Assembly (NCBI GenBank): GCA_002699145.1
Contig: PABK01000041.1
Coordinates: forward strand, 186,001-250,000
Direction: 5' to 3'
DNA: 64,000 nt
From: Halioglobus sp.
GTDB lineage: Bacteria; Pseudomonadota; Gammaproteobacteria; Pseudomonadales; Halieaceae
Shown: positions 13,633 through 34,627 of the stretch, in pieces
Layout: every line of letters starts with the position of its first letter
How positions within the stretch are numbered: position 1 is the stretch's first letter
Program-made: the position numbers and the translations under genes
The notes under the pieces: generated by a model
The model's database searches: none
The model's input: only the letters and a program-made list of their open reading frames with translations
What the model was told of the DNA's origin: nothing

Positions 13633-13646
13633 GCAAGAAAAAAAGT

Positions 13647-15563
13647 CTAGCCGCTAAACATACGCCCGGGTAGCTCTGCGTCGACTATTACACGAATTTC
13701 ATCGTCGCGGCGGGTAAAGCCGATGCGGTCGAAATACTCCAGCACATCTATCGCCACCTTGCGGCCGGTGCCCATGCGTCCCTTGAAGCTGACCACGGTA
13801 ACCGCTTCACTACCCGCCAACAGTTCGCGAACCAGTTGCGCCAGCTGCGCCAGTTGCGACGGCGTGGCGTAGCGGTTGTCGGTGAGTTTGTGCAGTCTGC
13901 CATCGGCGACCGCGGCGTGCACGAGCTTGTGCACAATGTCTTTCTCCAGACCCGTTGCCGAGACGACCTGGGAAAGGAGGGGAATGCTGTTGCCGCGCCG
14001 CTGCAGGAAGTCCTCGATCCTGTTCCAGCGCTGTACGTCGTCGTCCGACACCGACGCCCTGAACCCGGGCAGGGACAGGGCGCCATCCTTCAGGCGCAGC
14101 AGGGCGTCCTGTTGCAGTTTTTTCAGCGTCGCCGCCAGCAGCGGCGCCTCGAACGTATCAGCCAGCGTCGATTTCAGTTGCTGCACCGGCATACCCGCGG
14201 CCAGCGGGTGCTGGCGATGCCAACTGTGCAGAAGCCTGGGCAAGGTTGCCAGGCCGTGTTGCCAGCGCGCCAGGGACACCAGGTAACTGACGCCGTCGAA
14301 GCTTATGCGCTGCAACGGCGACGTGCACAGCGCCGCCATCTCGGGCTCGCGCAAATTCCAGCTCTGCCGGAATCGCTCCAGTTCCAGTAACCGGCCCTGC
14401 TCGACCACCAGCCTGTGCAGGGCGTCCGCGGGCGATGTGGTATCCAGGGCGCGCACGCAATCCAGGCGCTGTGGGCGACTCTTGCCCGCGCGCGGAGCAT
14501 AGGGGTCGAGCACGGTGCCCCCGCCCAGGGTGAAGCTTTCGCTATCGTCGCGCAGCAGGAACAACTCGCCGTGGCAGCAACTGACCGGCTCGTCCAGCAG
14601 CAGTTGCACCAGGGCGCTCGCGCCCGGCGCCAGGCGCGCGCCGCCCTCGAGGATAAACAGCCGTCCGGCGACGCGCCGGGCGCCCAGGTACACCTTCACC
14701 GGCGACCGGTGTCTGACCGCGCAGGGCGCGGCGGGAAGCATCTGCACACGCGCATCGAAACACGTTGACGTCGGCCCCGCATCCACATCCACCAGCCAGT
14801 CACCGCGCGCCACGTCGTCCCTGGCGACATCACCCACGATATTGAGCGCACAGCGCTGCCCGGCGCAGGCCGTGACCGCCTGCTCGTCCTGCACATGGAT
14901 GCCGCGCACGCGCAGTGTGGTCGCCGCCGGTTGCAGCACCAGGGAGTCGCCCACGCTGACCGACCCCGCGGTCGCCGTACCGGTGACCACCAGTCCCACC
15001 CCCTTGAGGTTGAACGCGCGATCGATCGACAGGCGAAAGCCGCCCGCGACGGCCCGGGCACTCAGGCTGCGGGCACACTGTTGCAGGTACTCCAGCAGTG
15101 GCGCCACACCCTCGCCGGTGGTGTTGGACACGGCGAACAGCGGCGCCTCGTTGTTTTCCTCTTGCAGCAACCCACGCGTCTGCGCCGCGACCTCCTGCAC
15201 GCGCCCGGCGGGCACACGGTCGATCTTGGTCACAACCAGCAGGAAGCGCGCCACACCGAGCAGGCGCAACACATCGAGGTGCTCAAAGGTCTGCGGCATC
15301 GGGCCGTCGTCGGCGGCCACCACCAGCATGCCGAGGTCGATGCCGCGCACCCCGGCAATCATGGTGTTGATAAAGCGTGTGTGCCCCGGCACATCGACAA
15401 AGCCGATCGGCTGGCATCCCTCCAGCTTGCGGTAGGCAAAGCCCAGGTCGATCGACAGGCCGCGACGTTTTTCCTCTGCCAGCCGGTCGGTGTCGACGCC
15501 GGTGAGGTGTTTGACCAGCGAGGTCTTGCCGTGATCCACGTGGCCCGCCGTGGCTACGATCAA
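13647..15563 (-). CDS. selB: Selenocysteine-specific elongation factor SelB
   Basis: A 638-aa GTPase that brings Sec-tRNA to the ribosome at UGA codons carrying a SECIS hairpin. The start is TTG at 15563 ([13 protein letters not shown], where SelB proteins begin), overlapping the selA stop as TTGA. G1 is GHVDHGKT, G3 is DVPGHTRF and G4 is TKID. EF-Tu-like domains 2 and 3 follow. The C-terminal ~270 residues hold the winged-helix repeats that bind the SECIS, including [20 protein letters not shown] typical of the last winged helix. Full length. Confidence 0.95.
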
Positions 15564-16960
15564 AGGCGTAACCCGTCCAGTTGCCCGAGAAACGCCTGCT
15601 CCTGGTCGAGGCAACGCAGGTCCAGCCAGAGGCTGGTTTTATGCAGCCTGCCGATCACCGGCAGGGGCAGCGAGCGCAGCACCTGCGCCAGCCTGCGCAC
15701 ATCGGCGTCATCACCGGACGCCGGGGTGATCCGGAGCGCGGCACTGGGCAGGGTCTCCACCGGCAGCGCGCCACTGCCGATCTGGCTGGCGCAGTCGGCA
15801 ATCTCAACCGAGTAGGTCGGCTGCAGGGCCCTGCTCAGCGCCGGCAGCAGGCGCCCGGCCTGGGCCGCGATATCTTCCGCGGGCCGCGTCAACTGGCGCA
15901 ACGTCGGCAGGCGCTGCACCAGGCTGTCCGGGTCCCGGTACAGCTTCAGCACCTCCGCCAGCGCGGCCAGGGTCATCTTGTCCAGGCGCAGGGCCCGCTT
16001 CAGCGGGTTGGTCTTGATCTGCCCGACCAGTTCCTTGCGGCCGGCGATCAGTCCCGCCTGTGGGCCGCCCAGCAACTTGTCGCCGGAGAAGGTGACCAGG
16101 TCCGCGCCGTTGGCGATCGCCTCGGCCGCCGTCGGCTCCGCGGGCAGGCCCAGCCTGGCGAAATCCACCAGGCTGCCGCTGCCCAGGTCGATAACAAAGG
16201 GCAGGCCCCGTTGCTGCGCCAGTTGCGCGAGCGCCCCCTCCGGCACCGCGCTGGTGAAGCCCTCGAGCTGGTAATTGCTGGTGTGTACCTTCATCAGCAG
16301 CGCCGTGGCGCTGTTGATGACCCCGGCAAAGTCTTTCAGGTGCGTGCGATTGGTGGCGCCGACCTCCACCAGGGTGCAGCCGGCGCGCTGCATGACCTCG
16401 GGAATACGAAAGGAACCGCCGATTTCCACCAGCTCGCCGCGCGACACCGGGACCTCGCGACCCAGGGCCAGCGTGTTCAATACCAGCAACACGGCGGCGG
16501 CGTTGTTGTTGACGGCGGTGGCCGCCTCGGCCCCCGTCAGTTCACACACCAGCGCCTCGATATGCGACTCGCGGTCGCCGCGCGCGCCGGAGTCGAGGTC
16601 GAACTCCAGGTTGCTGGGCGCCGCCGCCACGGTGACCACCGCGTCGAGCGCCTCCCGGGGCAGGCTCGCCCGACCCAGGTTGGTGTGCAGGACCGTGCCG
16701 GACAGGTTGATCACCGGCACCAGGCTGGCGCTGTTGCTGCGCTCCAGCCGCTGCGCGACGCGCTGTTGCAACGCCTCGGCGTCGGTCTGCGGGGTTTCGC
16801 CGCGGGCAATTTGCGCGCGCAGGTCGGCCAGTTCCGCGCGCAGCGCGTCGGTGACCTGTTGCCGACCCCAGTTCGCCAGGGCGTCGGGCATCTGTTGCAA
16901 CAGGGCGTCTACCGAGGGGATGCGGCGATGGGCTTCTTTTATCTGGCGGTCAGCTTTCAT
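15560..16960 (-). CDS. selA: L-seryl-tRNA(Sec) selenium transferase SelA
   Basis: A 466-aa PLP enzyme that converts seryl-tRNA-Sec to selenocysteyl-tRNA-Sec using selenophosphate. The N-terminal tRNA-binding domain (1-75) includes IPSVDALLQ. The core has INLSGTVLHTNLGRA (84-98), VNNNAAAVLL (150-159) and the PLP lysine K295 in TFSGDKLLGGPQAG, the same position as in E. coli SelA. The C-terminus is complete. It overlaps selB by 4 bp and starts 71 bp after the amidohydrolase gene on the same strand, so selenocysteine synthesis may be co-transcribed with a selenoprotein operon. No selD lies in the window. Confidence 0.97.
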   Translation of the reverse strand: MKADRQIKEAHRRIPSVDALLQQMPDALANWGRQQVTDALRAELADLRAQIARGETPQTDAEALQQRVAQRLERSNSASLVPVINLSGTVLHTNLGRASLPREALDAVVTVAAAPSNLEFDLDSGARGDRESHIEALVCELTGAEAATAVNNNAAAVLLVLNTLALGREVPVSRGELVEIGGSFRIPEVMQRAGCTLVEVGATNRTHLKDFAGVINSATALLMKVHTSNYQLEGFTSAVPEGALAQLAQQRGLPFVIDLGSGSLVDFARLGLPAEPTAAEAIANGADLVTFSGDKLLGGPQAGLIAGRKELVGQIKTNPLKRALRLDKMTLAALAEVLKLYRDPDSLVQRLPTLRQLTRPAEDIAAQAGRLLPALSRALQPTYSVEIADCASQIGSGALPVETLPSAALRITPASGDDADVRRLAQVLRSLPLPVIGRLHKTSLWLDLRCLDQEQAFLGQLDGLRL

Positions 16961-18486: not shown

Positions 18487-19602
18487 TCAGACTGTGACCG
18501 GCAGGGTAACGCTCTTAGTCATGCCCCAGCTGGGGATGACGCAACTGTGCTTGCCTGGTCCCCCGGCGACCAGGACCTTGATATTCTGCGGATCATCGGT
18601 GATGTGCATCATCTCGTCGTCGTCCATTTCCCTGATGGTATCCGCCCAATTGGCGACCTGGAAATGGCGACGGAAAACACCCGCCCTGGTTTTGGCTTTC
18701 TCGTACAGGCAGCGCTGGACATCCGCGCAGGACCAGCCCGCGTTGGCCATGATCTGGGCATGTTCCGGCCCCAGCACCACGAAGAACTCGGCGAATGACA
18801 GCGGCGCATTGTTCGAGCCCATGGTCATCATGACACTCGCCGCCTTCTCCAGGATGATCTCGGGGTTGTCGGTCTCCATGTCGTGGAAGTTGTGCGGGTT
18901 CTCGCCGCAGGTGACCGTTACCGCGCTCTCGGCGTCGACGCCGTAGCGCTGCGGAAACGCTTCCCAGGGCGTTTCCTCGGTATTCTCCGCGATGCAGTAG
19001 CTGTACTTGGACGGCTGTCCCTGGGTGGACGCGTCGCCGTCGCCCACCGTGGAACCGGCGATATGCAGCAGGATCAGGCGGATGGCCCGCCCCACTGTCG
19101 CATTCGCCCTGCAACCCGGGCCGAAGGTGCCGCGCCCCGAGTTGAAGCCCAGCTTCTTCACCGCCTTGCCATGCACGATAAGCAGGGGCGCAACCGGGTG
19201 GGTGGTGGCGTTTACGCCCTGCAGGTTGATTTCCGGGCTGGTCAGCGCGCGCACCGCGGAGGTGATGACCGGCAGCACGCCGTTGGGACATCCGGCCAGC
19301 ACCGCGTTGACCGCCAGCAGGCGGCGTGTCGCCTGGCCAAAGCGCGGCGGCAGTGTGGCGACGATCTCGTCCGGTGGCGGGGCTTCCTCCCCCTCGCCGA
19401 CCGCGAGCATGGCCGCGACCCGCTCCTCGGTCGGCGCCACCAGCGGCAGGCCATCACCCCAGCCGTTGGCCTCGAACAGCGCCATCAGTTCCTCGGGGTC
19501 TTCCGTGCCCAGGTCGAGCTCGGGCCTGACCCCGGCGGACACCAGCGGCATAGCACAGACATCGTCTTCACATTCCATGGCGCCTCTCCCAAATTCACTC
19601 AT
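18487..19602 (-). CDS. Conserved protein of unknown function, partner of UGSC selenoprotein
   Basis: A 371-aa soluble protein (363 aa if the ATG at 19578, preceded by GGGAGAGG, is the true start). No signal peptide or TM segment. Recognisable blocks are GWGDGLPLVAPTEERV (about 47-62), AVNAVLAGCPNGVLPV (about 96-111), GFNSGRGTFGPGCRANATVG (about 152-171) and SKYSYCIAENTEETPWE. I recall this type of protein beside UGSC genes but know no assigned function. Several conserved Cys, Gly and Asn residues suggest an enzyme. It overlaps the dehydrogenase gene by 4 bp and is followed by the UGSC gene 49 bp on, so all three are one operon. Confidence 0.8.
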   Translation of the reverse strand: MSEFGRGAMECEDDVCAMPLVSAGVRPELDLGTEDPEELMALFEANGWGDGLPLVAPTEERVAAMLAVGEGEEAPPPDEIVATLPPRFGQATRRLLAVNAVLAGCPNGVLPVITSAVRALTSPEINLQGVNATTHPVAPLLIVHGKAVKKLGFNSGRGTFGPGCRANATVGRAIRLILLHIAGSTVGDGDASTQGQPSKYSYCIAENTEETPWEAFPQRYGVDAESAVTVTCGENPHNFHDMETDNPEIILEKAASVMMTMGSNNAPLSFAEFFVVLGPEHAQIMANAGWSCADVQRCLYEKAKTRAGVFRRHFQVANWADTIREMDDDEMMHITDDPQNIKVLVAGGPGKHSCVIPSWGMTKSVTLPVTV

Positions 19603-21985: not shown

Positions 21986-22912
21986 CTAGGGGGCTATACC
22001 CAGCTGCGTCATGACCAGGGCTTTCAGTCGCCGCCCGGCCGGCGACAACTGGCGCCCCTTCAGCTGTACCAGGTGGTAGGGCGGCAACTGTATCGGACCG
22101 CGCAGGGGCAACACGCGGAACTTGGCCCCGATACTGGGGCCGGTGAGGAAGCTGGTCACTTCACTGGACAGCAGTGTCATCGCCGAGGTGGATTCGACGA
22201 TGGCGAGCATGGCCAGCTCCGAGGTGGTTATGATGGTGTCACCGAGCAGGCCCACACTATCGGACAGGGAATAGTCCGAGGCCTCCTCGATGGGCTCGCG
22301 GGTGGTGTGCACCACCCACTCGTAGGCGGCCAGCTCTTCGACGGTGACCTCGCCCGCATCGGCCAGCGGATGATGCTTGCCCACCAGCACATTCTGGATC
22401 TCCGAGCGCCCCTCGTGTACCTCGAACTCATTCACGTCGAAGCTGGGCGGCAAGCGCGCCAGGACGAAATCGTTCCTGCCCTCGACCAGGCCTTTCATCA
22501 GGTCATGGCTGGTCTCGACATTCAGCTGCACCGTCACCCTGGGCGTGGCTTTCTTGAGCTGCCGCACCGCCGGAATGACGTAGGCCAGCGTCGCACCGAT
22601 CACCGAACCGACTGTGGCGACGCCGGTTTCACCGTTCCTGAGTTCGTCGACCTCCCTGGACAGGTCGTCCAGGTCCAGCAGTATGCTGTGTGCGCGACGC
22701 TCCAGGGCCTCGCAGATAGCCGTCGGCACCATACCCTTGGCCTGGCGCTCGAATAACTGTTCGCCGACGATTTTCTCGATCTCCGACAGCATGCGCGACG
22801 CACCGGACTGGGTCATCGCCAGGCTGTCCGCCGCCAGGCCCAGCTGGCGGTGCTGGCAGATGGCGCGAATCAGGCGCAGGTGGCTCAACTTCAGTTGTCT
22901 GGCGAGGCTCAT
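21986..22912 (-). CDS. LysR-family transcriptional regulator
   Basis: A 308-aa LysR regulator. The N-terminal helix-turn-helix (about 5-64) reads LSHLRLIRAICQ, then AADSLAMTQSGASRML. A linker and a substrate-binding domain (about 92-300) follow. It sits alone between the LuxC/LuxE operon (230 bp upstream) and the selenoprotein operon, on the same strand as both. The 43-bp element upstream of each operon contains LysR-type symmetry, so this protein is the most likely shared regulator. No inducer can be deduced. Confidence 0.93.
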   Translation of the reverse strand: MSLARQLKLSHLRLIRAICQHRQLGLAADSLAMTQSGASRMLSEIEKIVGEQLFERQAKGMVPTAICEALERRAHSILLDLDDLSREVDELRNGETGVATVGSVIGATLAYVIPAVRQLKKATPRVTVQLNVETSHDLMKGLVEGRNDFVLARLPPSFDVNEFEVHEGRSEIQNVLVGKHHPLADAGEVTVEELAAYEWVVHTTREPIEEASDYSLSDSVGLLGDTIITTSELAMLAIVESTSAMTLLSSEVTSFLTGPSIGAKFRVLPLRGPIQLPPYHLVQLKGRQLSPAGRRLKALVMTQLGIAP

Positions 22913-23142: not shown

Positions 23143-24582
23143 CTACTGTGTGTCATCCACAATCCACTTGCACATCCTGCGCAGGGGCTCCAGGCCGTCC
23201 TGGGGCCCATCGCCCGGGGGATTGATGGCGCCGCCCAGGGACACCAGTCGCTGCCCGCCCTGGTAGGCCAGCCTGTCGCGAATTTCCGTCTTCAGCGACT
23301 CGGGGTAGATACCGATGGTTTGCGTGTACGCGTTGACCGACTGGATCGCGGTTTCCACGCTATCGATAGGCACCAGGTTGGCGACGCGGCAGGCGAGCTG
23401 GCGGGCAAAGTCCACCTGCTCGCTGTCATGGGAGACGATGACCGCGCCCTCGGAGCCCTTGCCGCCGATCACCGTGTAGTCTTCGGCGACAAAGCGCAGC
23501 CCGTCAATCTCCTGTTTCAGGTCGGGGTCGAAGCTGTGATGCGGTGTGCTGATCTCCTCGGGCAGCGCCTGGATAGCGTCGAACAGCGCCTGGCCAAAGC
23601 GCCTGGCCCTCTCCAGGCCGGCCTCGTCGGTCCCGCTGACGATATAGATGACACGCGCGTTCAGGCAGCCCTCCTGGTTGAAGCCGCCGACATCCAGCGC
23701 GGCCTTCGCGGCAACGCTGTTCATGGTCTGTTCGTCGGCGAAGGCCTCTTCCCCGATAATGGTCCCGCTCTGCTTGGGATCCAGGGTAATGAGGTCGATA
23801 CCCGGCTGCAGGTAGCCGGAAATGTGTTTGATACTGGCAAAGCCGCCCCAGGCAACGATCTTCTCGATATTCTTCGGCCGGTACAGCTCTGCCTCGAAGG
23901 AGGCGTCGCCACCCTTCCAGTAGGCTACTGACAGGTGTTTGGTCACCGGGTGATCCGGGTCCATGTCGATCATCGTTCTGGCCACAGCGGTCGTCGTCAG
24001 CGGGTCGTTGGACGGCGCCTTGACGATCGCGTCGCTCCGGGTGAGCGCATTCCTGACCACGGTGGCCACCCCGACCATGGGCGCGTTGCCCGCGATGACG
24101 TGCACGGTGCGCGCGCCGAATGCGCGCACCTGCACACCCTCCCTCAAGGAAACCCAGCCGTCGAGATAGTCGATACCAACGGTATGATCTATCGAATTCA
24201 ACAGGCTCTCCTTGACGAATGTCCCGGGCATGCCCTCATAAATCGAGCGCAGTATGGACTCGGAAAGGCCCGAGGTACGTTTGGACAGCTCAAAGGCCTC
24301 CTGCATGTAGGCGTTCTTCGAGAACTCCAGGCGTTCGCCGAGCCGGACCAGGTAGTCGGCGATCTCGTCAATGCTCAGCGAGTAGAGGTCGGCCATCGCC
24401 GACGGCCGCGTCATCACGATCCTGTCGATATAATCCACCGGGTTGGCGGACCTGAACTGGCTGCCCTGCTGGCGCCCGCCATAGTCTACCGAGTAGTCCT
24501 CGATGACTTCACCGCGTATGATCAACGGGACATTGAATACCTGTTGCACCGCCTCGTCTCCGTCCTGCTCAATCATGGTCAT
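23143..24582 (-). CDS. LuxC-like acyl reductase, paralog 1
   Basis: A 479-aa protein of the LuxC acyl-CoA/acyl-protein reductase family (aldehyde-dehydrogenase superfamily), which reduces an acyl thioester to an aldehyde with NADPH. The N-terminus has LIIRGEVIEDY; the cofactor region includes VHVIAGNAPMVG and IVKAPSNDPLT; catalytic Cys is C306 in FNQEGCLNAR. IVAWGGFASIKHI is also typical. Full length for LuxC (about 480 aa). It is the last gene of the operon, 15 bp after the LuxE-like gene that ends at 24598, as a luxC/luxE pair would be. No luxA or luxB is present, so light production is not its role here. Confidence 0.9.
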   Translation of the reverse strand: MTMIEQDGDEAVQQVFNVPLIIRGEVIEDYSVDYGGRQQGSQFRSANPVDYIDRIVMTRPSAMADLYSLSIDEIADYLVRLGERLEFSKNAYMQEAFELSKRTSGLSESILRSIYEGMPGTFVKESLLNSIDHTVGIDYLDGWVSLREGVQVRAFGARTVHVIAGNAPMVGVATVVRNALTRSDAIVKAPSNDPLTTTAVARTMIDMDPDHPVTKHLSVAYWKGGDASFEAELYRPKNIEKIVAWGGFASIKHISGYLQPGIDLITLDPKQSGTIIGEEAFADEQTMNSVAAKAALDVGGFNQEGCLNARVIYIVSGTDEAGLERARRFGQALFDAIQALPEEISTPHHSFDPDLKQEIDGLRFVAEDYTVIGGKGSEGAVIVSHDSEQVDFARQLACRVANLVPIDSVETAIQSVNAYTQTIGIYPESLKTEIRDRLAYQGGQRLVSLGGAINPPGDGPQDGLEPLRRMCKWIVDDTQ

Positions 24583-24597
24583 TCGCTGCCATCGCTC

Positions 24598-26013
24598 CTA
24601 GGCCGACGCGTTGATAAGAAACTCCAGGGCCTTGTCGTGCGCCTCGGGCGCCCCTGAGCAGTTGATCTTGTCGTCGCCACCCTCTTTCTCGCTGTAGCGC
24701 CTGATTTCGCCCTTCACATAGGCGCCCTGGCGGCCGCAGGCGCACACATTGTCATAGCCCGACAGCGTGACCTCGTCACCGCTGATGAAGCCGCCCCAGT
24801 AGGTCTCAGGCATGGTATCCAGGAAGGCGAAACGCCCGACCTGCTCGCCCGTCCGGGGCAGGGCCTCGCCGCTGATCGGGTCGAGTACAAACGGGATGAT
24901 GCTCGGCGGTATGTGGTAGTGGCCGTGCTCGCACTGCACGAAGGGCGTGGTCATCTCGCTCATCCCGTACAACTCGTAGGCACGCTCGAAGCCCGTCACC
25001 TCGTAGATCATTTCCTTCCAGCCCTGCGGCAGCTCGACACCCTTGTTGCCGCCCCCGGTCACCAGCACGCTGTCCGCGCCGAAGATGCCGGTATAGCCCT
25101 GCGCCTTTGCCTCGGACATGGCCTCGTACAGCATCGTCCAGACCGTGCACATGTAGATAGGCTTGCCACCGAAGCGCTCTACCGCCTCGGCATAGAATTC
25201 CCTGGTTCGCTGCTGCTTGACCATCTCCCGCTCGACAAAAATGTCTTTCTTGGCCAGCAGCTCCGGGCTGATCTCCAGTTCTCCCAACTCGCCGCGCGCC
25301 TCCGCCGCCCTGATGCGGCCCCCCAGGGAGGCGATATCGGCGCTGAGAATATCATCGTACAGGTACAGGCTGTTCTCGTCGGTAATGCCAAACAGCTCGG
25401 CCTGGGACTGGGAGGTGCGTATCATGGTCTGGTAGCCGCGTTTGTACGACGGGAACACCAGCGGCAGCGGGTTCTCAATCATGTCCGGCCCGGTGTTGTC
25501 GCCAAACCAGTCGCGAATCAGGTTTCTCATCAACACGTTGGGCACATGGCCCTCGGTCCTGTTCCTGGGCAGGAATGACAGCTTGCCGGTGGTGCCGGAG
25601 GAATGGCACAGGGTGAGGTTGGTCTCCTTCTCCAGTAGGTCGATCCATTCGTCGATGGACTTGCAGGCGCTGGCGTCGACAGCGGAAAGGTCCTCGGTGG
25701 TCAGGCCATTCAACCAGCGGGTGAGCTGCTTGAACTTGTTCTTCTCGAGGTAGGACAGCGGATAGGACTTGTACACCGTGTGCGGAAACAGGACCTTGAC
25801 CAGGTCGTCCAGGTTCTCGATCGAATCCACCCCCTGCTCTTGCGCCAGGCGATCCAGCGTGGACACCCCGCTCCGGAGCTTTTCGAACTTTCGCTTCGCC
25901 GTGACCAGGTAATACTCTTCCAACTCGCTGCCATGCACTTCGAACCCGGCGTTGTAGCGCTCCTCGATGAAACTTTTCGGCGCGGCTGCCAGCCTGGTCA
26001 GGTAGTCGTTCAT
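24598..26013 (-). CDS. LuxE-like acyl-protein synthetase, paralog 1 (canonical)
   Basis: A 471-aa LuxE-family enzyme, which activates a carboxylic acid with ATP and passes the acyl group to a Cys. The adenylation motif is intact: HSSGTTGKLSFLPR (137-150). Further blocks are ELYGMSEMTTPF and the C-terminal region CACGRQGAYVKGEIRRYSE followed by DDKINCSGAPEAHDKALEF, which contains the Cys equivalent to the acylated residue of LuxE. Of the three paralogs this one keeps both halves of the signature. Vibrio LuxE is about 370 aa, so this is a longer version. Clusters directly with LuxC-like paralog 1. Confidence 0.9.
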   Translation of the reverse strand: MNDYLTRLAAAPKSFIEERYNAGFEVHGSELEEYYLVTAKRKFEKLRSGVSTLDRLAQEQGVDSIENLDDLVKVLFPHTVYKSYPLSYLEKNKFKQLTRWLNGLTTEDLSAVDASACKSIDEWIDLLEKETNLTLCHSSGTTGKLSFLPRNRTEGHVPNVLMRNLIRDWFGDNTGPDMIENPLPLVFPSYKRGYQTMIRTSQSQAELFGITDENSLYLYDDILSADIASLGGRIRAAEARGELGELEISPELLAKKDIFVEREMVKQQRTREFYAEAVERFGGKPIYMCTVWTMLYEAMSEAKAQGYTGIFGADSVLVTGGGNKGVELPQGWKEMIYEVTGFERAYELYGMSEMTTPFVQCEHGHYHIPPSIIPFVLDPISGEALPRTGEQVGRFAFLDTMPETYWGGFISGDEVTLSGYDNVCACGRQGAYVKGEIRRYSEKEGGDDKINCSGAPEAHDKALEFLINASA

Positions 26014-26085
26014 AGGGGCCTCTGGTTATCGTCGGTTGTACAAGTGCATGGAAGGAACTGTGGTGCGGGCTTGCGCCCGCAGCCT

Positions 26086-27336
26086 TCAGCCAGCCCGCTC
26101 AGGATCGAAGGTGATCTTCATTTCCTTTATGCCGTTGACAAAGAAGTCGCGGACATACTTCACCGGTTCGGCGAACTGCGGATTACGCAGGCGCGGCAGC
26201 ACCTCGCTGAAGACCACGTTGAGCTCCAGCCGCGCGAGGTGCGAGCCCAAACAGAAATGCTGGCCGATACCGAACGCGCGGTGCTCACGATGCAGGTCGG
26301 GCATGCGCTGTGCACGGGTGATGTCGAACTCGAACGGCGCGTCGAAGACCGCGTCGTCGGTGTTGATCAGGTGCCAGTTGAGGATCAGCTTGTCGCCCTC
26401 GCGCAACTGCTCCCCGCCGATCTGGATATCCTCCATGACCGTGCGACGCATGCCGACGAAAGCCGGGTTGTAACGCAACACCTCCTCGATGGCGTCGGGG
26501 ATCAGTTCGGGCCTGTCGATAAGCAGTTGCAGCTGTTCCGGGTGCTCCATCAACAGGCGCATGCCGTGCGCCGTCACGGAGCGCGTGCTTTCATTGCCCG
26601 CCGCGATCAACATCAGGAAGAACATCTGGAACTCGTCGGTGGTCAGTTTCTCGCCCTCGACGATACCGTCGAGCAGGGCGCCGACAATGTTGTTCAGTGG
26701 CTTCTCCTTGTGACGGCTGGCCAGCTCGTCGGCGTAGAAATACATCTGTGCCGCGGCATTCTCGGCGCGCTCTTTCGGGTTGTCCCCGGCGAAGTCCTCG
26801 TCCTCCTGGAAAAACATTTCGTTCGTCCACTGGAAGATCTTCGCGCGGTCGTCCTTGGGAACACCGCAGAGATCCAGGATCGCCATCAGGGGCAGTTCCG
26901 CGGCGACTTCACTGACGAACTCGCACTCGCCACGCGGGGCGACCGCATCGACGATCTCCCTGGCGTAGCGCTGGAAGGTTTCCTGGTACGCGTCGACCGC
27001 TTTCGGGGTAAAGGCGTTCCTGGCGATGCGGCGGTATTTCTGGTGCTTGGGCGGATCCATGTTCACCAGCATCTGGGATTGCGCCGCCACCTGCTCTTTA
27101 CTCATCTCTGTCGGTATTGCGGTCTGCGCGGTGCTGGAAAACACGCCGGGGTTCTTGCAGATATCATCAGCCAGGTCCCGGCTGAGAACCGCCCAGTAGG
27201 GAACACCGGTGAGCGGGTCTTCGATCTTGATGATCGGGGCGCTGGTCGAGTCACGCAGTTCGCGCAGCGCCTCGTGATGCCCTCCTCTACCGTAGAGGTC
27301 GGGATCGAGCAGATTTCTGTACGGGCAAGCAGTCAT
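26086..27336 (-). CDS. Cytochrome P450
   Basis: A 416-aa soluble bacterial P450. The I-helix oxygen-binding motif is AAGNEST (245-251), the K-helix ExxR is E285-R288 (EEVLRY), and the heme loop is FGIGQHFCLGSHLAR with ligand C362. NMDPPKHQKYRRIARNAF (92-109) is typical of CYP124/125/142- and CYP111-like enzymes that oxidise terpenoid or steroid side chains, though the true family is uncertain. It needs ferredoxin and reductase partners that are not in this window. AAGGA lies 8 bp before the ATG. Placed between a LuxE-like gene and the ThDP enzyme, it probably oxidises a pathway intermediate. Confidence 0.93.
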   Translation of the reverse strand: MTACPYRNLLDPDLYGRGGHHEALRELRDSTSAPIIKIEDPLTGVPYWAVLSRDLADDICKNPGVFSSTAQTAIPTEMSKEQVAAQSQMLVNMDPPKHQKYRRIARNAFTPKAVDAYQETFQRYAREIVDAVAPRGECEFVSEVAAELPLMAILDLCGVPKDDRAKIFQWTNEMFFQEDEDFAGDNPKERAENAAAQMYFYADELASRHKEKPLNNIVGALLDGIVEGEKLTTDEFQMFFLMLIAAGNESTRSVTAHGMRLLMEHPEQLQLLIDRPELIPDAIEEVLRYNPAFVGMRRTVMEDIQIGGEQLREGDKLILNWHLINTDDAVFDAPFEFDITRAQRMPDLHREHRAFGIGQHFCLGSHLARLELNVVFSEVLPRLRNPQFAEPVKYVRDFFVNGIKEMKITFDPERAG

Positions 27337-27394
27337 GAGAGATTCCTTGTCAGCTATTACATGAATACAGCCGGCGACTCCCGCCGGTCTTCGC

Positions 27395-29110
27395 TTACTT
27401 GTAGAACTCCATCAACAGGTCGACCATGCCGGAACCTTCCGGGCAGACCATCAACTCGACGACGGCGGGCTTCTTCAGCGCTATCATCTCGCTGACCACC
27501 GACTGTACATCCGTCGGGTCTGTTACGCGTTTGGCAGTCACACCGAAACTCGCCGCCAGGTCACACAGGTTGAGCTCGCCGACGTCATAGCTGTTGCCAA
27601 GTTCTACCTCCAGCGGCGCTTCCACCTCGAAGGTGTGCATCATGAACAGCCCTCGCATACAGCCGTATCCGCCGTTGTTCATGATGATCATCACCGCCGG
27701 GATGTCGTATTTCGCCGCCGACCAGAGTGCCTGAACACAGAACATGGCGCCACCATCACCGAGGATGCCGACCACCGGGCGTTCCGGCGCGCCAAGCGCG
27801 ACGCCCAGGGTCGCGGGCACGCCCCAGCCCAGGGCCTCGCAGTGACCAAAGTAGCTGCCGGGCTCGTCAAATTTCATCACCTTGGGCAACTGGCCGTAGA
27901 ATGACGCCAGTTCATCCACGACAATGGCGTTCTCCGGCAGGGCGCTGGCGATCTCGCGAAAGGCTGCGCCCCAGCGCATCGGCGTATCCTGCCAGTCCTG
28001 GTCCAAGACACCCTGAACAAACTCCTCGCGCTGGCGGTACTCACCGGCCAGGCGTTCCATACGGGCGGCGCGCTTGCCCGCATCGACCATACCCTCGAGC
28101 CGTTGCTGCAAGGCGGGCAGGGCCAACTTCGGGTTGGCCAGCAGCGCCTGCTGCGTGGGGCAGAACCGCGCGAGCTGCGAAGAGTCGAGATCGATCTGGA
28201 TGACCCTGGTGGACTCGGGCACCAGCGGCGTGTCCGGCGCATCGGAGTACTTGAACAACTCGTTGCCGATGGTGATCAGCACATCTGCGGAGGACGCCAT
28301 ATTGCGCATCGAGTCCGCCTGCTGCATGACCATGCCACGGCTCAGCGGATTACCACTGGGAAAGATGACCTTGTCCTCGTTTCCCGTGTAGACCGGCGCG
28401 CCTATCGTTTCCGCGAAGGCGACCAGTTCGGCTACCGCGTCCACGTCCGCGACGGCGCGGCTGGCGAAGATCACCGGGGATTCCGCCGCGGCAATCATCT
28501 GCGCCGTCGCCTGCAGGGCGCTGTCCGACGGCAGGATATCCAGCGCCATACGACGCCCGTCGGGCGGCATCGCCCGGTAGGAAATGCGGGCTTTCTGCAC
28601 CGCGGTGGTCATGGACAGCACCACCGGGCGGGGCGAGGGAGCGCTCATGTCGCGCAGCGCCCGGTTAACCGACAGCTGCGCCTCATCGGCCGAAGTAATC
28701 TCCCAGCAACCTTTGGTGACCTGGCTGACCATCGGCGCCAGGTCGATGCCCATGAAACGCTCAGCCCATTCCCTGGGCGCATCCTGTTGCCCGACGATGA
28801 CCAGCACGCGACTGCCGGATGCGTAAGCGTTCTGCAGGTTAGCCATGGCGTAGGACAGACCGGCGGCGCTGTGCACAACCACAACACCGGGCTTGCCGGA
28901 TGTCCTCGAATAGCCATCCGCCATACCCATGGCCGCGGCCTCGTTGGCGGCGTGGATAAACCTGATGCCCTCCATGGCGTACAGGTCGTGCAACATGGGC
29001 ACATTGGTGATGCCACAGACACCGAAAATGCAGTCGATGCCCTCCTCCTGCAGCATGGTCCACATGGCCGTGGAGGCCGTCATTTCCTGTGCACTGTTAC
29101 CGTTGCTCAT
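27395..29110 (-). CDS. ThDP-dependent decarboxylase/lyase (benzoylformate decarboxylase-like)
   Basis: A 571-aa thiamine-diphosphate enzyme with the three-domain plan of the acetolactate synthase/benzoylformate decarboxylase family. The catalytic Glu is E57 in HAANEAAAMGMADGY; the central domain (about 195-340) follows; the ThDP/Mg motif runs from GDG (451-453) to NN (478-479). It could decarboxylate a 2-keto acid, or join or split aldehydes (carboligation). Beside two LuxC-like aldehyde-forming reductases, carboligation of an aldehyde is an attractive guess. AAGGA precedes the ATG. The acceptor and donor are unknown. Confidence 0.92.
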   Translation of the reverse strand: MSNGNSAQEMTASTAMWTMLQEEGIDCIFGVCGITNVPMLHDLYAMEGIRFIHAANEAAAMGMADGYSRTSGKPGVVVVHSAAGLSYAMANLQNAYASGSRVLVIVGQQDAPREWAERFMGIDLAPMVSQVTKGCWEITSADEAQLSVNRALRDMSAPSPRPVVLSMTTAVQKARISYRAMPPDGRRMALDILPSDSALQATAQMIAAAESPVIFASRAVADVDAVAELVAFAETIGAPVYTGNEDKVIFPSGNPLSRGMVMQQADSMRNMASSADVLITIGNELFKYSDAPDTPLVPESTRVIQIDLDSSQLARFCPTQQALLANPKLALPALQQRLEGMVDAGKRAARMERLAGEYRQREEFVQGVLDQDWQDTPMRWGAAFREIASALPENAIVVDELASFYGQLPKVMKFDEPGSYFGHCEALGWGVPATLGVALGAPERPVVGILGDGGAMFCVQALWSAAKYDIPAVMIIMNNGGYGCMRGLFMMHTFEVEAPLEVELGNSYDVGELNLCDLAASFGVTAKRVTDPTDVQSVVSEMIALKKPAVVELMVCPEGSGMVDLLMEFYK

Positions 29111-29164
29111 ATCCTTTCTCCACTGATGGTAGCCGCCAGGCGCCCAGGCCGAGGGGCGTCGAGT

Positions 29165-30481
29165 TCAGAGTCGCTCTATTGAAAGTTCGAGCAGCGGGCC
29201 GTTGTTCAGGCCGCACTTACACACCTTGTCCCAGTGTACGGTGCCGCGATCGCCGGTGATGATGCCACCCCAGCAGTCCTCCGAGACCAGCTCCAGCGCG
29301 GCGAGCTGCCCGGTCTGCGTGCCCTGCCTGGGCAGGGGCTTGCCCGTCTGCGGATCGAGGACGAACGGGATCGTGTGTACGTTGAAGTGGTACATGCCCT
29401 CGATACACTCGTTGGCCGCGCCCGTGGCGAGCTCCGACATGCCCCAGGCCGTGACAATCTTGTCCGTGCCCATCGCCTCCTTGAACTGTTGCCGCCAGTC
29501 GTCGGGCAGTACCGTGCCCTTCTTCACGCCGCCAAACACCGCGAATACCGAGTCGGGGCCGAAGGCGGCCGAAATGCCCTCCGCCTGGAACGAGCGCGTG
29601 ATATCCCAGGCATGCTCGAAGGTGCCCATGAAATAAATGCTCTTGCCCAGGTAGTTGTTCCTGATGTTTTCCAGCCATGTGTGGAGGCGCTGCGGCGCCT
29701 CCTCGCCAAATCGATTGACATCCTCGGCATACGCCGCCACAACAGGGTCGCGCAGGCATTCGTCCATGGTGTCGGTCTCCGCGGCCCTGCGCAGCCTGTT
29801 CATGGCGATGGTCATTTCCGGGCTGATGAACTGGTCGAAGGGTGAGATCACCGGGTTCTGCAGGTACTTCTCCTCGAGGCCATCGTAGACGACCTGGGGA
29901 ACGCGGTAGATGTAACGCGGGCTCATGGTGAAGAAGAACACATCCTCGTTGCCCTTGCCGCTGTCGAACAGGCCCAGGTTGGCGCGGGCCATCGCATCCA
30001 CGATCAATTCGCGGTCAATTCGCGAGCGCGGTACAAAACTGAGCGTCCCGCTGGTACCGGAAGAATGACAAACGAATATGTCGGCCTGTTCATAGAGCCG
30101 TTCACACCACTGGGTCAGGTTCTCACACCCGTTCATATCCACGCCGGACAGGTCGCAGGAGGTGAATCCGTCCAGCCACCGGGTCAGCTTGTCGAACTGC
30201 CTGTTCTCCAGGTAGGACTTGTCGTAGCTCTTGTAGTCACTGTCCACGTAGAGGAAAGGGATCAGGTCATCGATACTCTGGCAGGCAAGAGGGTCGCGGT
30301 CACCGAGCTTCCTGCCCAATGCCGGAATGCGCTTTGCCTGGCGCGCCAGTTTGCGCCGCGCCGCCTCCAGCTGGAAGGCCGCGACGTCTTCCCAGCGCAA
30401 GGCGGCGAGCTGTTCCTCGGAGAGAAACACCAGGTCCCGGGGCGAGTCCAGGTAGTCGTTCAGGTCAATTGAACCGCTCAT
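29165..30481 (-). CDS. LuxE-like acyl-protein synthetase, paralog 2 (short C-terminus)
   Basis: A 438-aa LuxE-family protein. The adenylation signature is intact: HSSGTSGTLSFVPR (139-152), with TAWGMSELATGA near the middle and KCGLNNGPLLELSIERL at the end. Compared with the other two paralogs it stops about 20-30 residues early and lacks the C-terminal DDKI-x-C-x-G segment with the presumed acyl-accepting Cys. It may therefore form the acyl adenylate but pass the acyl group elsewhere, for example to CoA, to a partner LuxE-like protein, or directly to LuxC-like paralog 2, which is encoded 15 bp upstream. The truncation is seen; the consequence is inference. Confidence 0.85.
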   Translation of the reverse strand: MSGSIDLNDYLDSPRDLVFLSEEQLAALRWEDVAAFQLEAARRKLARQAKRIPALGRKLGDRDPLACQSIDDLIPFLYVDSDYKSYDKSYLENRQFDKLTRWLDGFTSCDLSGVDMNGCENLTQWCERLYEQADIFVCHSSGTSGTLSFVPRSRIDRELIVDAMARANLGLFDSGKGNEDVFFFTMSPRYIYRVPQVVYDGLEEKYLQNPVISPFDQFISPEMTIAMNRLRRAAETDTMDECLRDPVVAAYAEDVNRFGEEAPQRLHTWLENIRNNYLGKSIYFMGTFEHAWDITRSFQAEGISAAFGPDSVFAVFGGVKKGTVLPDDWRQQFKEAMGTDKIVTAWGMSELATGAANECIEGMYHFNVHTIPFVLDPQTGKPLPRQGTQTGQLAALELVSEDCWGGIITGDRGTVHWDKVCKCGLNNGPLLELSIERL

Positions 30482-30496
30482 CCGCGCGCTTCCCGG

Positions 30497-31942
30497 TCAG
30501 GCCGTTTCGCGCCAAAGGGCGGGCGCATAGTTGGTCATGCAATCCTCGGACACCACCCAGGTGCACATCTTGCGCAGCGCCTCATTGCCGTCGTGGGGGT
30601 CGATGGAAGCGTTATACTCGCGCATATAGCCGAGCGAGGTGATTCTTTGCACGCCATGCAACGCCATGATCGTACGCAATTCATCGCGCAGGCTTTCCGG
30701 GTAGACGCCGACGGTCTGCACGTCGCGGGTGAAATAGCGCAACATGGTATCGAAATCGGGCACCGGCACGATGTTGATCGTGCGATAGCGCAATTCATCG
30801 GCAAAATCCACCTGGTCGCCGAGCAGGGAGACGATGACGCCACCGCGCTTGTCACCACCTATCACGTGATACTCGTCGTCAAGTAAAGACAATGAGTCGA
30901 CTTTCGAGACGAAGGTCGGGTCCATGTGGATCGCTTCGGAGCTGATCTCTTCGGGCAGTTTCTGGATTTCGTCAAACACCATCTGTCCGAACAGCTTGAT
31001 TCGCTCCAGTGCGTCGTCGCTCATATCGCACAGTGCATAAGTCACACGGGAGTTGGTACAGCCGTTCTGGTTGCCGTTGCCAACATCGTCGGCCAGCCTG
31101 ACAGCAGCTTCTCTCATGCTATCTTCCGAGGAGAATGTCTGCTCGCCGAGCACCGAGCGGCTGATCTTCGGGTCAAAGGCCATGAGGTCTATGCCCGGGC
31201 GCACATATTTGGCGATGTGCTTGATCGACTCGAACCCACCCCAGGCAACGATTCGCTCGACATGTTTCGGGTGATACAAGCTGGTCTCGAACTTTTCATC
31301 GCCGCCGCGCCAGTAGACAGTGGAAAAGGACTTCGTCAACGGATGATCCGGCGCCATGTCGATCGCGGTGCGGGCGATGGCCACGGCCGTACCCAGCTCG
31401 TTGGAGGGGATCTTGACCATGGCGTAACCGCGAATGAGTGCGTTGCGCACAAACGTCATCATGGCGGGCGCCGGACCGTTACCGGCAATGACATGCGCGG
31501 TGGGAACGCCGAAGGCATGTATATGCGCGATTCTTCCATTCGCGCGTTCATAGGGCGCCCAGCCATCGAGGTGCTCCCGGCCCACGGTATCGATCATCGC
31601 CTCGAGCATTTCACGCCGGCAAAAGCCCTGGTTCACCCGCAGCGCTTTCTCCACCAGGTCGGAGGACACATCGTTGAATACCCGGGATAACTCCAGCGCC
31701 CATTGCAGGTGCGGGTTGCTGTCCACGTCCAGATGCTTGCCGAACTCGACCAGGTAATCCACCACGTCGTCCAGTGATATCTGGTACAGCGCCTCCATCT
31801 CGCGCCGGCTCGGCAGCACGATCTTCGACAGGTACTTGTTGGGGTCCGGGCATTCGAAGCTGGCGCCGTAACGGCCCTCGCACGTCACCTCGTAGTCTTC
31901 GATGACTTCGCCACGGGCAACGATCGGTACTTGATACTTCAT
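30497..31942 (-). CDS. LuxC-like acyl reductase, paralog 2
   Basis: A 481-aa LuxC-family reductase. Like paralog 1 it begins with IVARGEVIEDYEV, has AHVIAGNGPAPA and MVKIPSNELGT in the cofactor region, RIVAWGGFESIKHI, and catalytic Cys C295 in GNQNGCTNSRVTY. It would reduce an activated acyl group to an aldehyde with NADPH. The two LuxC paralogs are clearly diverged, so they probably handle different substrates or form a mixed complex. An AGGA site lies 9 bp before the ATG. Flanked by LuxE-like paralogs 3 and 2. Confidence 0.9.
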   Translation of the reverse strand: MKYQVPIVARGEVIEDYEVTCEGRYGASFECPDPNKYLSKIVLPSRREMEALYQISLDDVVDYLVEFGKHLDVDSNPHLQWALELSRVFNDVSSDLVEKALRVNQGFCRREMLEAMIDTVGREHLDGWAPYERANGRIAHIHAFGVPTAHVIAGNGPAPAMMTFVRNALIRGYAMVKIPSNELGTAVAIARTAIDMAPDHPLTKSFSTVYWRGGDEKFETSLYHPKHVERIVAWGGFESIKHIAKYVRPGIDLMAFDPKISRSVLGEQTFSSEDSMREAAVRLADDVGNGNQNGCTNSRVTYALCDMSDDALERIKLFGQMVFDEIQKLPEEISSEAIHMDPTFVSKVDSLSLLDDEYHVIGGDKRGGVIVSLLGDQVDFADELRYRTINIVPVPDFDTMLRYFTRDVQTVGVYPESLRDELRTIMALHGVQRITSLGYMREYNASIDPHDGNEALRKMCTWVVSEDCMTNYAPALWRETA

Positions 31943-31975
31943 ACTGGTGTTCCTGGTTGTCGGCCTGGCCTGTCC

Positions 31976-33406
31976 TCAGGCCTTGAGAAGATACTCAGAG
32001 GCTTCCTCGACCGCGCTGGAGGTTCCCGCACAACCGATCTTGTCGTCTGTTCGCGAAACGACCTTGCTGATCGCCGTTTCGATGTAAATGCCCTTGCGCC
32101 CACACGCGCAGGACTCGTCGAACGTCATGGTGACCTGGTCGCTGGTGATGTAGCCGCCCCAGGAGGTGGTGGGCAACAAGTCAAAGAAGGCGAAACGCCC
32201 GGTCTGTCGCCCCGTGCGCGGCAACGGCTCGTCCGTCTCTTCATCGAGCACGAACGGGATGATGGTCGGCGGGACGTGATACTTGTCCTGGTCGCACGCC
32301 TGCATCGCCCACATGCCCTCCTGCATGCCGTAACCCACACGCAGCTGGCCTTCGTACAGGCCCAGCGCGTCCATGACCTCGGCCTTCCAGTTGGGCGGGG
32401 GCTCCTGGCCATCAAAGCCGCCGCCGCACATGATGAAGGAGTCGGGGCTGTAGGCGCCCTTGATACCCCTCTCCCTGAACTGCTGGGCCAGGCTGTAGAT
32501 CATTTTCATGCTGCCGTAGAAAATGATGCGCTCGCCGCGGTACTTGTTGATCATACGGTCCATCAGGCCCATGAACTGCCCGGGGAGTTCGGCGTTGCTG
32601 CGCGCCACCTCCTCCTTTCTTTCCAGGAGCTTCGGGTTGATCTGCAGGGAGCCGGCCTCGCCCTTGCGGCTGGCCTCGCGGATCCGGCCGGCGAGACTGA
32701 CCAGGTCGGCATCCACGTAGCCCAGCGGGGCGTCCACCGTGCCCTCACCGAACTTTTCCTCGTAGAAATCCATGAATCGCCAGCTGCGCGCACCGTGGCG
32801 GGCGCCAGGGTAGATCAGCGGCACCTTGTCCACCCCGGGGCGCAGGGCAATCGATTCACCGCTGGGCCCGACACTCCTGTTGAACCCGGCATAGGTGACT
32901 TGCATCAGCATGTCCCATTCCTGGCGTGTCCGCGGCAGGAAAGAAGCCTTGCCCTCCGCGCCGGCGGACATCATCAGGTCGACATCGGACTGCTCCTTGA
33001 GCACGCGAATCCAGTCCTCGATCAACTCGCAGGAGGAGGCGTCCACGCCGCTGAGGTCCGCGGCGCACAGCTTGCCCAGCCACTTCGTCATGCGCTGGAA
33101 GTCGCCGCTCTCCAGCCACGCCTGGGGGTAACCCTTGAAGGTCTCCTGGTTGTAGCAGACCGGCAACAGGTCATTGAAGTCGCGGATTTCGGTGATCCCG
33201 TTCTGCGCGGCCATGCGGCCGACCATACCGATGCTGTCCTTCGCCCTGGCAAACTTTTCACCGGCCAGGGACAGGCGGATGACATCCAGTTCCCCGGGCT
33301 CGACGGAGAAGATCACCTCGGCGGGGAAGTCGAGGTAGCTCAGCGGGTTCTCGGCGAAGCGCCGCTTGAACTGCTCCGTAGCATCCTGGTCATGGCTACT
33401 GCTCAT
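31976..33406 (-). CDS. LuxE-like protein, paralog 3 (degenerate adenylation motif)
   Basis: A 476-aa LuxE-family protein, first gene of the operon. Where the other paralogs have HSSGT-[TS]-G it has MMSAGAEGKASFLPR (145-159): the Ser/Thr-rich adenylation loop is replaced by SAGAEG. The C-terminal half is conserved, with CACGRKGIYIETAISKVV and DDKIGCAGTSSAVEEASEYL holding the presumed acyl-accepting Cys. It may be an acyl carrier or transfer subunit without activation ability, the mirror image of paralog 2. The 43-bp element lies 231-273 bp upstream. Loss of the motif is seen; loss of activity is inferred. Confidence 0.85.
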   Translation of the reverse strand: MSSSHDQDATEQFKRRFAENPLSYLDFPAEVIFSVEPGELDVIRLSLAGEKFARAKDSIGMVGRMAAQNGITEIRDFNDLLPVCYNQETFKGYPQAWLESGDFQRMTKWLGKLCAADLSGVDASSCELIEDWIRVLKEQSDVDLMMSAGAEGKASFLPRTRQEWDMLMQVTYAGFNRSVGPSGESIALRPGVDKVPLIYPGARHGARSWRFMDFYEEKFGEGTVDAPLGYVDADLVSLAGRIREASRKGEAGSLQINPKLLERKEEVARSNAELPGQFMGLMDRMINKYRGERIIFYGSMKMIYSLAQQFRERGIKGAYSPDSFIMCGGGFDGQEPPPNWKAEVMDALGLYEGQLRVGYGMQEGMWAMQACDQDKYHVPPTIIPFVLDEETDEPLPRTGRQTGRFAFFDLLPTTSWGGYITSDQVTMTFDESCACGRKGIYIETAISKVVSRTDDKIGCAGTSSAVEEASEYLLKA

Positions 33407-33796: not shown

Positions 33797-34627
33797 TCAG
33801 TCCAGCGGGGCCATCGGCGGCAATGCCTGTTGCATCAGGGCCTCGTATCGCACGCGCAGTTGCTCACGGAAACTGGGCCTGGTGGCGATGAGGAAAGTAT
33901 CGTTGCGCACCCCGTCCAGTACGGGCTGGAACGCCTCGTCGGGGTCGGCGCCGTCCTTCAGTATGGACTGCAGCGCCTCCACACAGGCGACACCGTCTTC
34001 GGTTGCATCGCTGCCCAGTGCCTGTGGCCGCAGGCTGCCCGTTTGCGCGATACCGGTATTGAAATTGCTTGGCGTCAGCACGCTGGCGCCAATCTTCGCA
34101 CCGGTCAACTGCAGGTCAAGCGCCAGGCACTCCGTCACGGACATCGCTGTATTCTTGGACACGACATAGGGGGCGGACATCGGCCCGGCGACAAAAGCGG
34201 CGACCGATGCCGTATTGACCACGTGTCCCTCGGTGTCCTGGGCAATCATGCGCGGCACGAAGGCCTTGATGCCGTTGATGATGCCGTAGACATTGACGCT
34301 GAAAATCCATTCCCAGTCCTCGCGGCTGCGCTCCCAGCTCAGGCCGCCCTGGAACACACCGGCGTTGTTGATCAGCAGGTCCACCTGGCCGTAGGTGTCG
34401 AAGGCGTGGTCTGCGAGCTCGCGCACCGATGCGTAGTCGGCGACATCAACGCGGTAGGGACTCGCCGCGGTACCGATCTGCGCGGCGGTCTTCGCCGCAT
34501 TGTCCTGGTCCAGGTCCGCCACGACCACCTGCATACCCTGGGCCGCGAAACCCCGCGCGAGGGCGGCGCCGATACCGTTGGCGGCGCCGGTAATCACGGC
34601 GACCTTGTCCTTGAATTCAGTGAGCAT
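33797..34627 (-). CDS. Short-chain dehydrogenase/reductase
   Basis: A 276-aa classical SDR. The cofactor motif is TGAANGIG (14-21), followed by DVADYAS, LINNAGVF, and catalytic S (TASVAAF) and YxxxK (YVVSK). DLDQ after the second strand (VVVADLDQ) suggests preference for NAD(H). It would oxidise an alcohol or reduce a ketone. GGGGGA precedes the ATG. It lies upstream of, and on the same strand as, the LuxC/LuxE operon but is separated by 390 bp and the 43-bp element, so membership in that pathway is only possible. Confidence 0.92.
   Translation of the reverse strand: MLTEFKDKVAVITGAANGIGAALARGFAAQGMQVVVADLDQDNAAKTAAQIGTAASPYRVDVADYASVRELADHAFDTYGQVDLLINNAGVFQGGLSWERSREDWEWIFSVNVYGIINGIKAFVPRMIAQDTEGHVVNTASVAAFVAGPMSAPYVVSKNTAMSVTECLALDLQLTGAKIGASVLTPSNFNTGIAQTGSLRPQALGSDATEDGVACVEALQSILKDGADPDEAFQPVLDGVRNDTFLIATRPSFREQLRVRYEALMQQALPPMAPLD

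Follow-up and report, generated by a model that had tools for sequence, protein, structure and literature searches.

Among the closest described counterparts of the system reported here is the fatty acid reductase LuxC-LuxE of luminous bacteria (7xc6), in which LuxE adenylates the acid and then carries the acyl group on a C-terminal cysteine, given as Cys364 for P. phosphoreum (PMC8301110). GriC-GriD of Streptomyces griseus, which belongs to grixazone, consists of an AMP-binding activator and a separate reductase that convert an acid to an aldehyde (PMC10179220). Unnamed pairs of a "hypothetical" and an "acyl-CoA reductase" gene are also found in Pseudomonas, Paraburkholderia, Sphingobium, Mycobacterium, Pseudonocardia and Hodarchaeota. 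We analysed a stretch of 64,000 nucleotides from Halioglobus sp. (contig PABK01000041.1, positions 186,001 to 250,000), called the window below, which carries an operon for three LuxE-like proteins (E1, E2, and E3), two LuxC-like acyl reductases (C1 and C2), a thiamine diphosphate (ThDP) enzyme (T) and a cytochrome P450 (P). The new feature of this operon is a pair of apparently complementary losses, unique among 101 aligned proteins, of the acyl-acceptor cysteine in E2 and of ATP-loop residues and a conserved lysine in E1. The operon is real and coherent, and the complementary losses raise its interest above that of a lux set with duplicated genes, but it is a single example without a conserved gene order.

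Relationship of the operon to the lux system

The seven open reading frames (ORFs) were all found on the minus strand, 15-72 bp apart, as an earlier note on this DNA had described them: E1 (31976..33406, 476 aa), C1 (30497..31942, 481 aa), E2 (29165..30481, 438 aa), T (27395..29110, 571 aa), P (26086..27336, 416 aa), E3 (24598..26013, 471 aa), and C2 (23143..24582, 479 aa), with gaps in this order of 33, 15, 54, 58, 72, and 15 bp. The parts list of that note was likewise backed by Pfam, NCBIfam and the homology among the E proteins. C1 and C2 belong to the LuxC family PF05893 (141.5 and 154.7 bits, cut-off 21), and their scores with the LuxC equivalog NF052251 (107.6 and 152 bits) lay below its cut-off of 750. 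A profile of 12 C proteins found LuxC 7xc6_A as its best match in the PDB (1.6e-53), and the LuxC catalytic cysteine, Cys295 in the NQNGC motif of C1, aligned with that of 7xc6_A and was kept in all 98 aligned C proteins.

The E proteins are more distant. E1 matched LuxE PF04443 with 30.3 bits (cut-off 24.9) and the LuxE equivalog with 21.9 bits against a cut-off of 550, while E2 and E3 gave no Pfam match at 1e-3 and no equivalog match at 0.01; over 432-475 aligned residues, E1 and E3 were 34% identical, E2 and E3 30%, and E1 and E2 29%. A profile of 14 E proteins ranked the LuxE chain 7xc6_E first of four PDB sequences (2.9e-7), and by these profile comparisons E1, E2, and E3 would belong to a remote branch of LuxE. 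They are longer than LuxE (438-476 aa versus 373 aa). The ATP loop and the C-terminal cysteine that mark a LuxE-type acyl-protein synthetase, together with the lysine of GG-x-K, are present in one protein in E3; E1 lacks the ATP loop and the lysine, and E2 lacks the cysteine. The operon resembles the lux reductase in the LuxC profile, the catalytic cysteine, the adjacent genes and the motifs of E3, and differs from it in that luxA, luxB, and luxD are absent and E1 and E2 each miss a different essential feature. The proposal that the LuxE/LuxC pairs reduce acids to aldehydes was upheld at the level of homology by the invariant cysteine of the C proteins and by the tail cysteine and ATP motifs kept in E3.

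The operon, having neither luxA nor luxB, cannot be classed as a lux bioluminescence operon. Its description as luciferase-free holds for the seven genes, but elsewhere in the genome 31 matches to the luciferase-like monooxygenase (LLM) family were found, a number that gave the impression of being high for such a genome. Nine of the 31 were checked and none was named LuxA or LuxB; seven of the nine matched F420-type LLM models (one below the curated cut-off) and two matched no model at 1e-40. The three E matches of the genome all lay inside the operon, and its LuxC family comprised the two operon genes and one weak additional match (21.1 bits).

Motif losses and divergence of E1 and E2

The 102 E and 99 C hits were reduced by removal of identical (2 and 2) and short (2 and 1) sequences to 98 and 96, and with the window proteins the final sets held 101 E and 98 C proteins; at least 25 of the 98 outside E proteins were from Pseudomonas, and the 101 rows do not represent 101 independent lineages. 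The C-terminal tail cysteine was present in 100 of the 101 E proteins, including the DDKINC tail of E3 (24658..24675) and the DDKIGC tail of E1 (32030..32047), where Cys459 is the presumed acyl acceptor. The sole exception was E2, which ended just before the tail. No tail was encoded after its stop codon in any reading frame, and a frameshift was rejected as the source of the loss. The phosphate loop of E2 (SSGTSG, 30047..30064) was intact. In E1, on the other hand, the loop had changed from SSGTTG to SAGAEG (32951..32968), away from the family pattern [ST][ST]G[TS][TS]G, and no other of the 101 proteins had Ala in position 2, Ala in position 4 or Glu in position 5 of the loop. The lysine of GG-x-K-G was also kept in 100 of the 101 proteins, E1 having Asp instead (GGFDG, 32408..32422). 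Seven other E proteins departed from the strict loop pattern at one position each, and all seven retained the lysine and the cysteine. A further check covered nine loci, three of them already in the set; the six new ones, which were of a single genus and perhaps overlapped genomes already used, all kept loop, lysine and cysteine.

The position of the tail cysteine was also compared with LuxE itself. The NCBIfam LuxE alignment joined E1 residues 289-460 to positions 189-359 of the 367-position model, and if the end of this alignment is ungapped, Cys459 sits nine positions before the model end, which is where Cys364 of P. phosphoreum would lie in a LuxE of 373 residues, the length of 7xc6_E. As judged from these motifs, E1 appears to have kept the carrier part and lost the ATP part, E2 appears to have kept the ATP part and lost the carrier part, and the two genes flank C1. 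Since the losses are complementary and both genes lie beside C1, the simplest functional reading would be a division of labour between E1 and E2. The LuxE and LuxC genes had been called duplicated and triplicated; this was correct for the gene counts, but E1 and E2 differ in which half of the LuxE machinery they lack and are therefore no plain duplicates.

Phylogenetic analysis, with trees built from subsets of the alignments (36 of 101 rows for E, 34 of 98 for C), separated the two parts of the operon. E3 fell within a supported set of nine (bootstrap 100, Shimodaira-Hasegawa-like approximate likelihood ratio test (SH-aLRT) 99) and C2 within another set of nine (96/94), and the five nearest rows were common to both (L016, L088, L095, L106, and L115). 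E1, E2, and C1 formed solitary long branches of 1.63, 1.78, and 1.53 changes per column with unbroken frames, and their best identities outside the window were 36%, 32%, and 46%, respectively. In the approximately unbiased (AU) test, C1 and C2 as sisters (p-AU 0.020) and the three E proteins as one clade (p-AU 0.012) were rejected, while E1 and E2 as sisters were not (p-AU 0.198); the tree program warned that the position of such long rows is unsure. Because of the long branches and the rejected groupings, E1-C1-E2 probably represents another lineage that diverged separately, and no local copy of E3-C2.

In addition to the motifs above, four Cys/His columns, represented by Cys371, His377, Cys433, and Cys435 of E1, were invariant in a 39-row alignment and kept in E1, E2, and E3. 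They look like a possible metal site, and both cysteines of the CxC were kept in 95 proteins of the 101-row set.

Occurrence of the E-C pair and of the seven-gene set

To the unnamed pairs mentioned above E3-C2 is related as a direct member, with identities of up to 54% for E3 and up to 63% for C2. GTDB r220 was scanned with one genome per species (84,980 species genomes) using the C alignment and two peptide patterns, which gave 387 LuxC-like relatives, and the best 80 by match to C1 were kept as 79 distinct loci. An E gene was present in all 79 loci kept from these best 80, and by BLAST positions it was adjacent to C on the same strand in 75 (the exceptions were L046, L094, L101, and L113); the gene caller alone, with neighbours scored by codon position, gave adjacent pairs in 69. 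The order was E-C in 68 of these 69 pairs, and 23 of the 69 were immediately followed, on the same strand, by a gene from a cluster represented by a zinc alcohol dehydrogenase. The loci were recorded from Pseudomonas, Paraburkholderia, Cupriavidus, Variovorax, genera of Sphingomonadaceae, Mycobacterium, Nocardia, Myxococcota, Hodarchaeota and others, and relatives on plasmids included Pseudonocardia, M. avium, Caballeronia and Sphingobium. E3-C2 is thus placed by sequence in a scattered module of one LuxE-like and one LuxC-like protein. In the literature searched, mostly outside subscription journals, no characterised member of this module was found. The module looks like a two-component carboxylic acid reductase similar in working principle to GriC-GriD, which, compared by description alone, shares the separate activating protein and reductase proposed here and differs in its aromatic aldehyde product and in being a single pair without a divided partner. 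Most loci of the unnamed pairs differ from the window in holding a single pair, behind which an alcohol dehydrogenase or short-chain dehydrogenase/reductase (SDR) gene often lies, and none of the loci read showed the E1-C1-E2-T-P450 arrangement.

Some loci had surroundings of their own. On Pseudonocardia plasmid pLS1-1 (L031), E-C had a type I polyketide synthase gene upstream of it and, downstream, first a hypothetical and then a P450 gene, which suggests a role in natural-product synthesis. In Pseudomonas sp. GM84 (L049), E-C-alcohol dehydrogenase was found amid MMPL, YCF48-like, alkyl sulfatase, and DUF1214/1254 genes with acyl-CoA dehydrogenase, AMP-ligase, and thiolase genes nearby, and the locus looks like a hydrophobic-compound cluster. 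A plasmid of Paraburkholderia sprentiae (L036) carried one C and two E genes and is another locus with more E than C genes; both of its E proteins were intact in loop, lysine and tail cysteine. In genome G286, three E genes lay on three contigs, two with a full C gene beside them and one with a C gene cut by the contig end. Three contigs labelled Hodarchaeota, from metagenome-assembled genomes, also held the module (L073, L076, and L113).

The seven-gene set was sought in samples of 293 genomes of the order, 369 of the class and 398 of the phylum, drawn from larger groups. No second copy was found in the order with E1 as query, in the class with T, in the phylum with E2, among plasmids with T, E2, and C1, or in the 79 loci kept from the GTDB scan. 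E1 had matches in 16 of the 293 order genomes including its own; the set was absent around the match in all nine of the other 15 that were read, and the remaining six were weak matches. None of the 11 other family members among the 293 had an E match of any kind. The gene order, which had been expected to recur in relatives, was therefore not conserved in anything searched, and this outcome, named beforehand as one that would count against the proposal, weighs against a fixed, widely used pathway. The operon appears to be a one-off combination in which a widespread module has been joined to unusual partners. When the window genes were compared with relatives, the RIO-kinase gene alone matched four of them at more than 50% identity, the other flank matches (SDRs, P450, and one 843-aa ORF) were at most 47% identical, with one relative's stretch being 10 kb, and no empty insertion site could be defined from this comparison.

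Proposed route, the partner enzymes and alternative explanations

From the gene content, the motifs kept and lost, the family relations and the genomic co-occurrence, we infer the following reactions, complementation in trans, substrates and products. E3 would adenylate an acid with ATP and take the acyl group onto its C-terminal cysteine as a thioester, and C2 would receive it on its active-site cysteine and reduce it with NADPH to an aldehyde. In parallel, E2, with its ATP motifs intact and no tail cysteine, would make an acyl-adenylate, and E1, with its tail cysteine kept and its ATP loop lost, would accept the acyl group in trans and pass it to C1. The aldehydes would go to T, preferably for a crossed carboligation of the acyloin type, and the P450 would hydroxylate a lipid-like or terpenoid precursor or product. 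That two acid reductases of the LuxE/LuxC type are at work, E3-C2 intact and E1-C1-E2 with a divided LuxE, is the reading that we favour, tentatively and well short of confidence. If that is granted, the crossed acyloin step has a little better than an even chance. The entire route, with an adenylation-only E2 and a carrier-only E1 serving C1, an intact second pair, two aldehydes and their coupling by T, we regard as unlikely. In the literature searched, such a crossed-acyloin route from a divided LuxE was not described, nor was such an operon, this E-C branch or a divided LuxE, in line with the earlier suggestion of an undescribed route. If true, the half-reactions of LuxE, activation and carriage, would be separable into paralogous subunits, giving a natural experiment on the LuxE-LuxC transfer, and free acids would be turned by a compact route into products coupled through a carbon-carbon bond. 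Should the divided LuxE prove wrong, the E-C module is still a candidate two-component carboxylic acid reductase family with possible use in biocatalysis.

T contained three ThDP domains (Pfam TPP enzyme N, M, and C), and its best relatives in the PDB were benzoylformate decarboxylases (BFDC; 1.2e-58), with which it shares the GDG...NN motif, Glu57, and His80. It scored 292.7 bits with PRK07092 against a cut-off of 493, below the level of a benzoylformate decarboxylase. Relatives at 1e-60 occurred in three of the 368 other class genomes with 29-30% identity and none above 30%, and the sole plasmid match at 1e-40 was 28.6% identical. ThDP genes of other kinds were found in L106, immediately ahead of C-E (26%), and in L115, close to C-E (27%) and together with a gene for an FMN-dependent dehydrogenase; therefore ThDP chemistry met the E-C module more than once. 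An acyloin-type product of T is put forward as a hypothesis.

P belongs to the Pfam p450 family (97.9 bits, cut-off 22.8) and contains the heme-ligand motif FGIGQHFCLG and the I-helix motif. Its nearest solved relatives were CYP125MRCA (2.3e-97) and CYP125 (7.2e-69), steroid C26-monooxygenases with which it shares the heme cysteine and the I-helix motif, and from which it differs in falling within a group common in this bacterial order. A relative of P with at least 60% identity was present in six of the 10 genomes with a strong E match (<=1e-27) and in nine of the 283 others (p 1e-6), with cut-offs chosen after the lists had been seen and four of the six in one genus; counted by genus, the co-occurrence was 3/6 versus 7/112 (p 0.008). 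In the own genome, no fewer than five additional P450 genes showed 49-65% identity to P (six of 27 candidates scored), and this richness suggests broad oxidation of sterols, terpenoids or branched lipids. In genome G047, a 69% identical P450 relative was divergent from an E-C-SDR set, and the surroundings of the P450 relatives in L148 and L149, from other genomes, had no common gene except the P450 gene.

Several points weigh against the proposed pair of reductases and the route built on it. The gene order was not conserved anywhere seen, and no E1 or E2 orthologue that could bear on the pairing of the losses was found in the genomes searched. The reach of the E family to LuxE is weak, and acid reduction by this branch would be ascribed by homology. 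The tail may aid adenylation (K/R before the cysteine), and therefore E2 alone may be inactive; a scaffold role for E1 or E2 is also possible. T has Ile and Ser at the positions matching Ser26 and His281 of BFDC (position 26 is Met in the aligned entry 4juc), which we take to be catalytic, and it would keep two of four such positions; it may be a carboligase, a decarboxylase or a lyase. In this order, P450 genes like P are common, relatives at 1e-80 being present in 44 of the 293 genomes, and therefore P may be incidental. Without the genus of the window, the co-occurrence of P and E fell to 2/5 versus 7/112 (p 0.047).

A possible though doubtful alternative is that only E3-C2, along with the P450, works as an acid reductase, and that E1, C1, and E2 are diverged paralogues with regulatory or scaffolding roles or in decay. 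The outside proteins (n = 98) had 38 columns with a conservation of 95% or more; E1 departed from eight of these and E2 from 13, more than any other of the 101 proteins (E3 two, outside maximum five), which together with the long branches and the lack of orthologues fits such a history. This alternative is countered by the frames of the three genes, 438-481 codons kept open over a long divergence, and by their GC content at third codon positions (GC3), which at 0.76-0.86 for the seven genes was inside the range of the other measured window genes. C1 moreover retained the catalytic cysteine and 67 of 74 conserved columns, and the losses in E1 affect other functions than those in E2.

Rather unlikely is a catabolic operon for degradation of a hydrophobic compound, in which a branched or sterol-like side chain would be oxidised by the P450 and dehydrogenases. 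T would then cleave an alpha-hydroxy ketone or form an aldehyde by decarboxylation of a 2-oxo acid, and the LuxC proteins would either work in the direction of the acyl thioester or remove inhibitory acids by reduction. The likeness of P to CYP125, the genome's wealth of P450 and LLM genes, and the acyl-CoA dehydrogenase, thiolase, AMP-ligase, alkyl-sulfatase and MMPL genes around E-C in L049, the one Pseudomonas locus annotated in detail, point this way, but the ATP-dependent acid activation of LuxE would be expected to drive reduction and no beta-oxidation genes were found inside the operon with Pfam. Steroid catabolism as the purpose was tried and set aside, the CYP125 match being its sole hint and a literature search on LuxE/LuxC with P450 and steroid degradation giving nothing.

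Extremely improbable is a single selenocysteine-containing fusion of E2 and T by read-through of TGA, because the two genes, which are in frame with each other, one TGA and 18 sense codons apart (29110-29168), in a window that also encodes tRNA-Sec, selA, and selB, would show such spacing about one third of the time, T has its own start, the TGA is off the family cysteine position, no Rfam match at E 5 and no SECIS-like signal were found in 28900-29400, and folding after the TGA was ordinary (z 0.06).

A scan for promoters and terminators gave nothing above chance level, and composition gave no sign of horizontal transfer, the GC3 of the operon genes not being distinctive. A Pfam-assigned LysR-type regulator is encoded directly downstream (21986..22912, minus strand), with a connection that is possible but not demonstrable. 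Farther along, a 371-aa protein without a Pfam match at 1e-3 (18487-19602) is encoded between D-2-hydroxyacid dehydrogenase-like and amidohydrolase genes, and the tRNA-Sec gene adjoins selB (13647-15614) and selA (15560-16960) in a selenocysteine insertion locus (13542-16960). Upstream of the operon by 390 bp, a Pfam-assigned SDR oxidoreductase (33797..34627, minus strand) is a possible aldehyde or alcohol enzyme of the same pathway, and relatives 35-43% identical to it were present in four E-C loci (L045, L098, L107, and L110).

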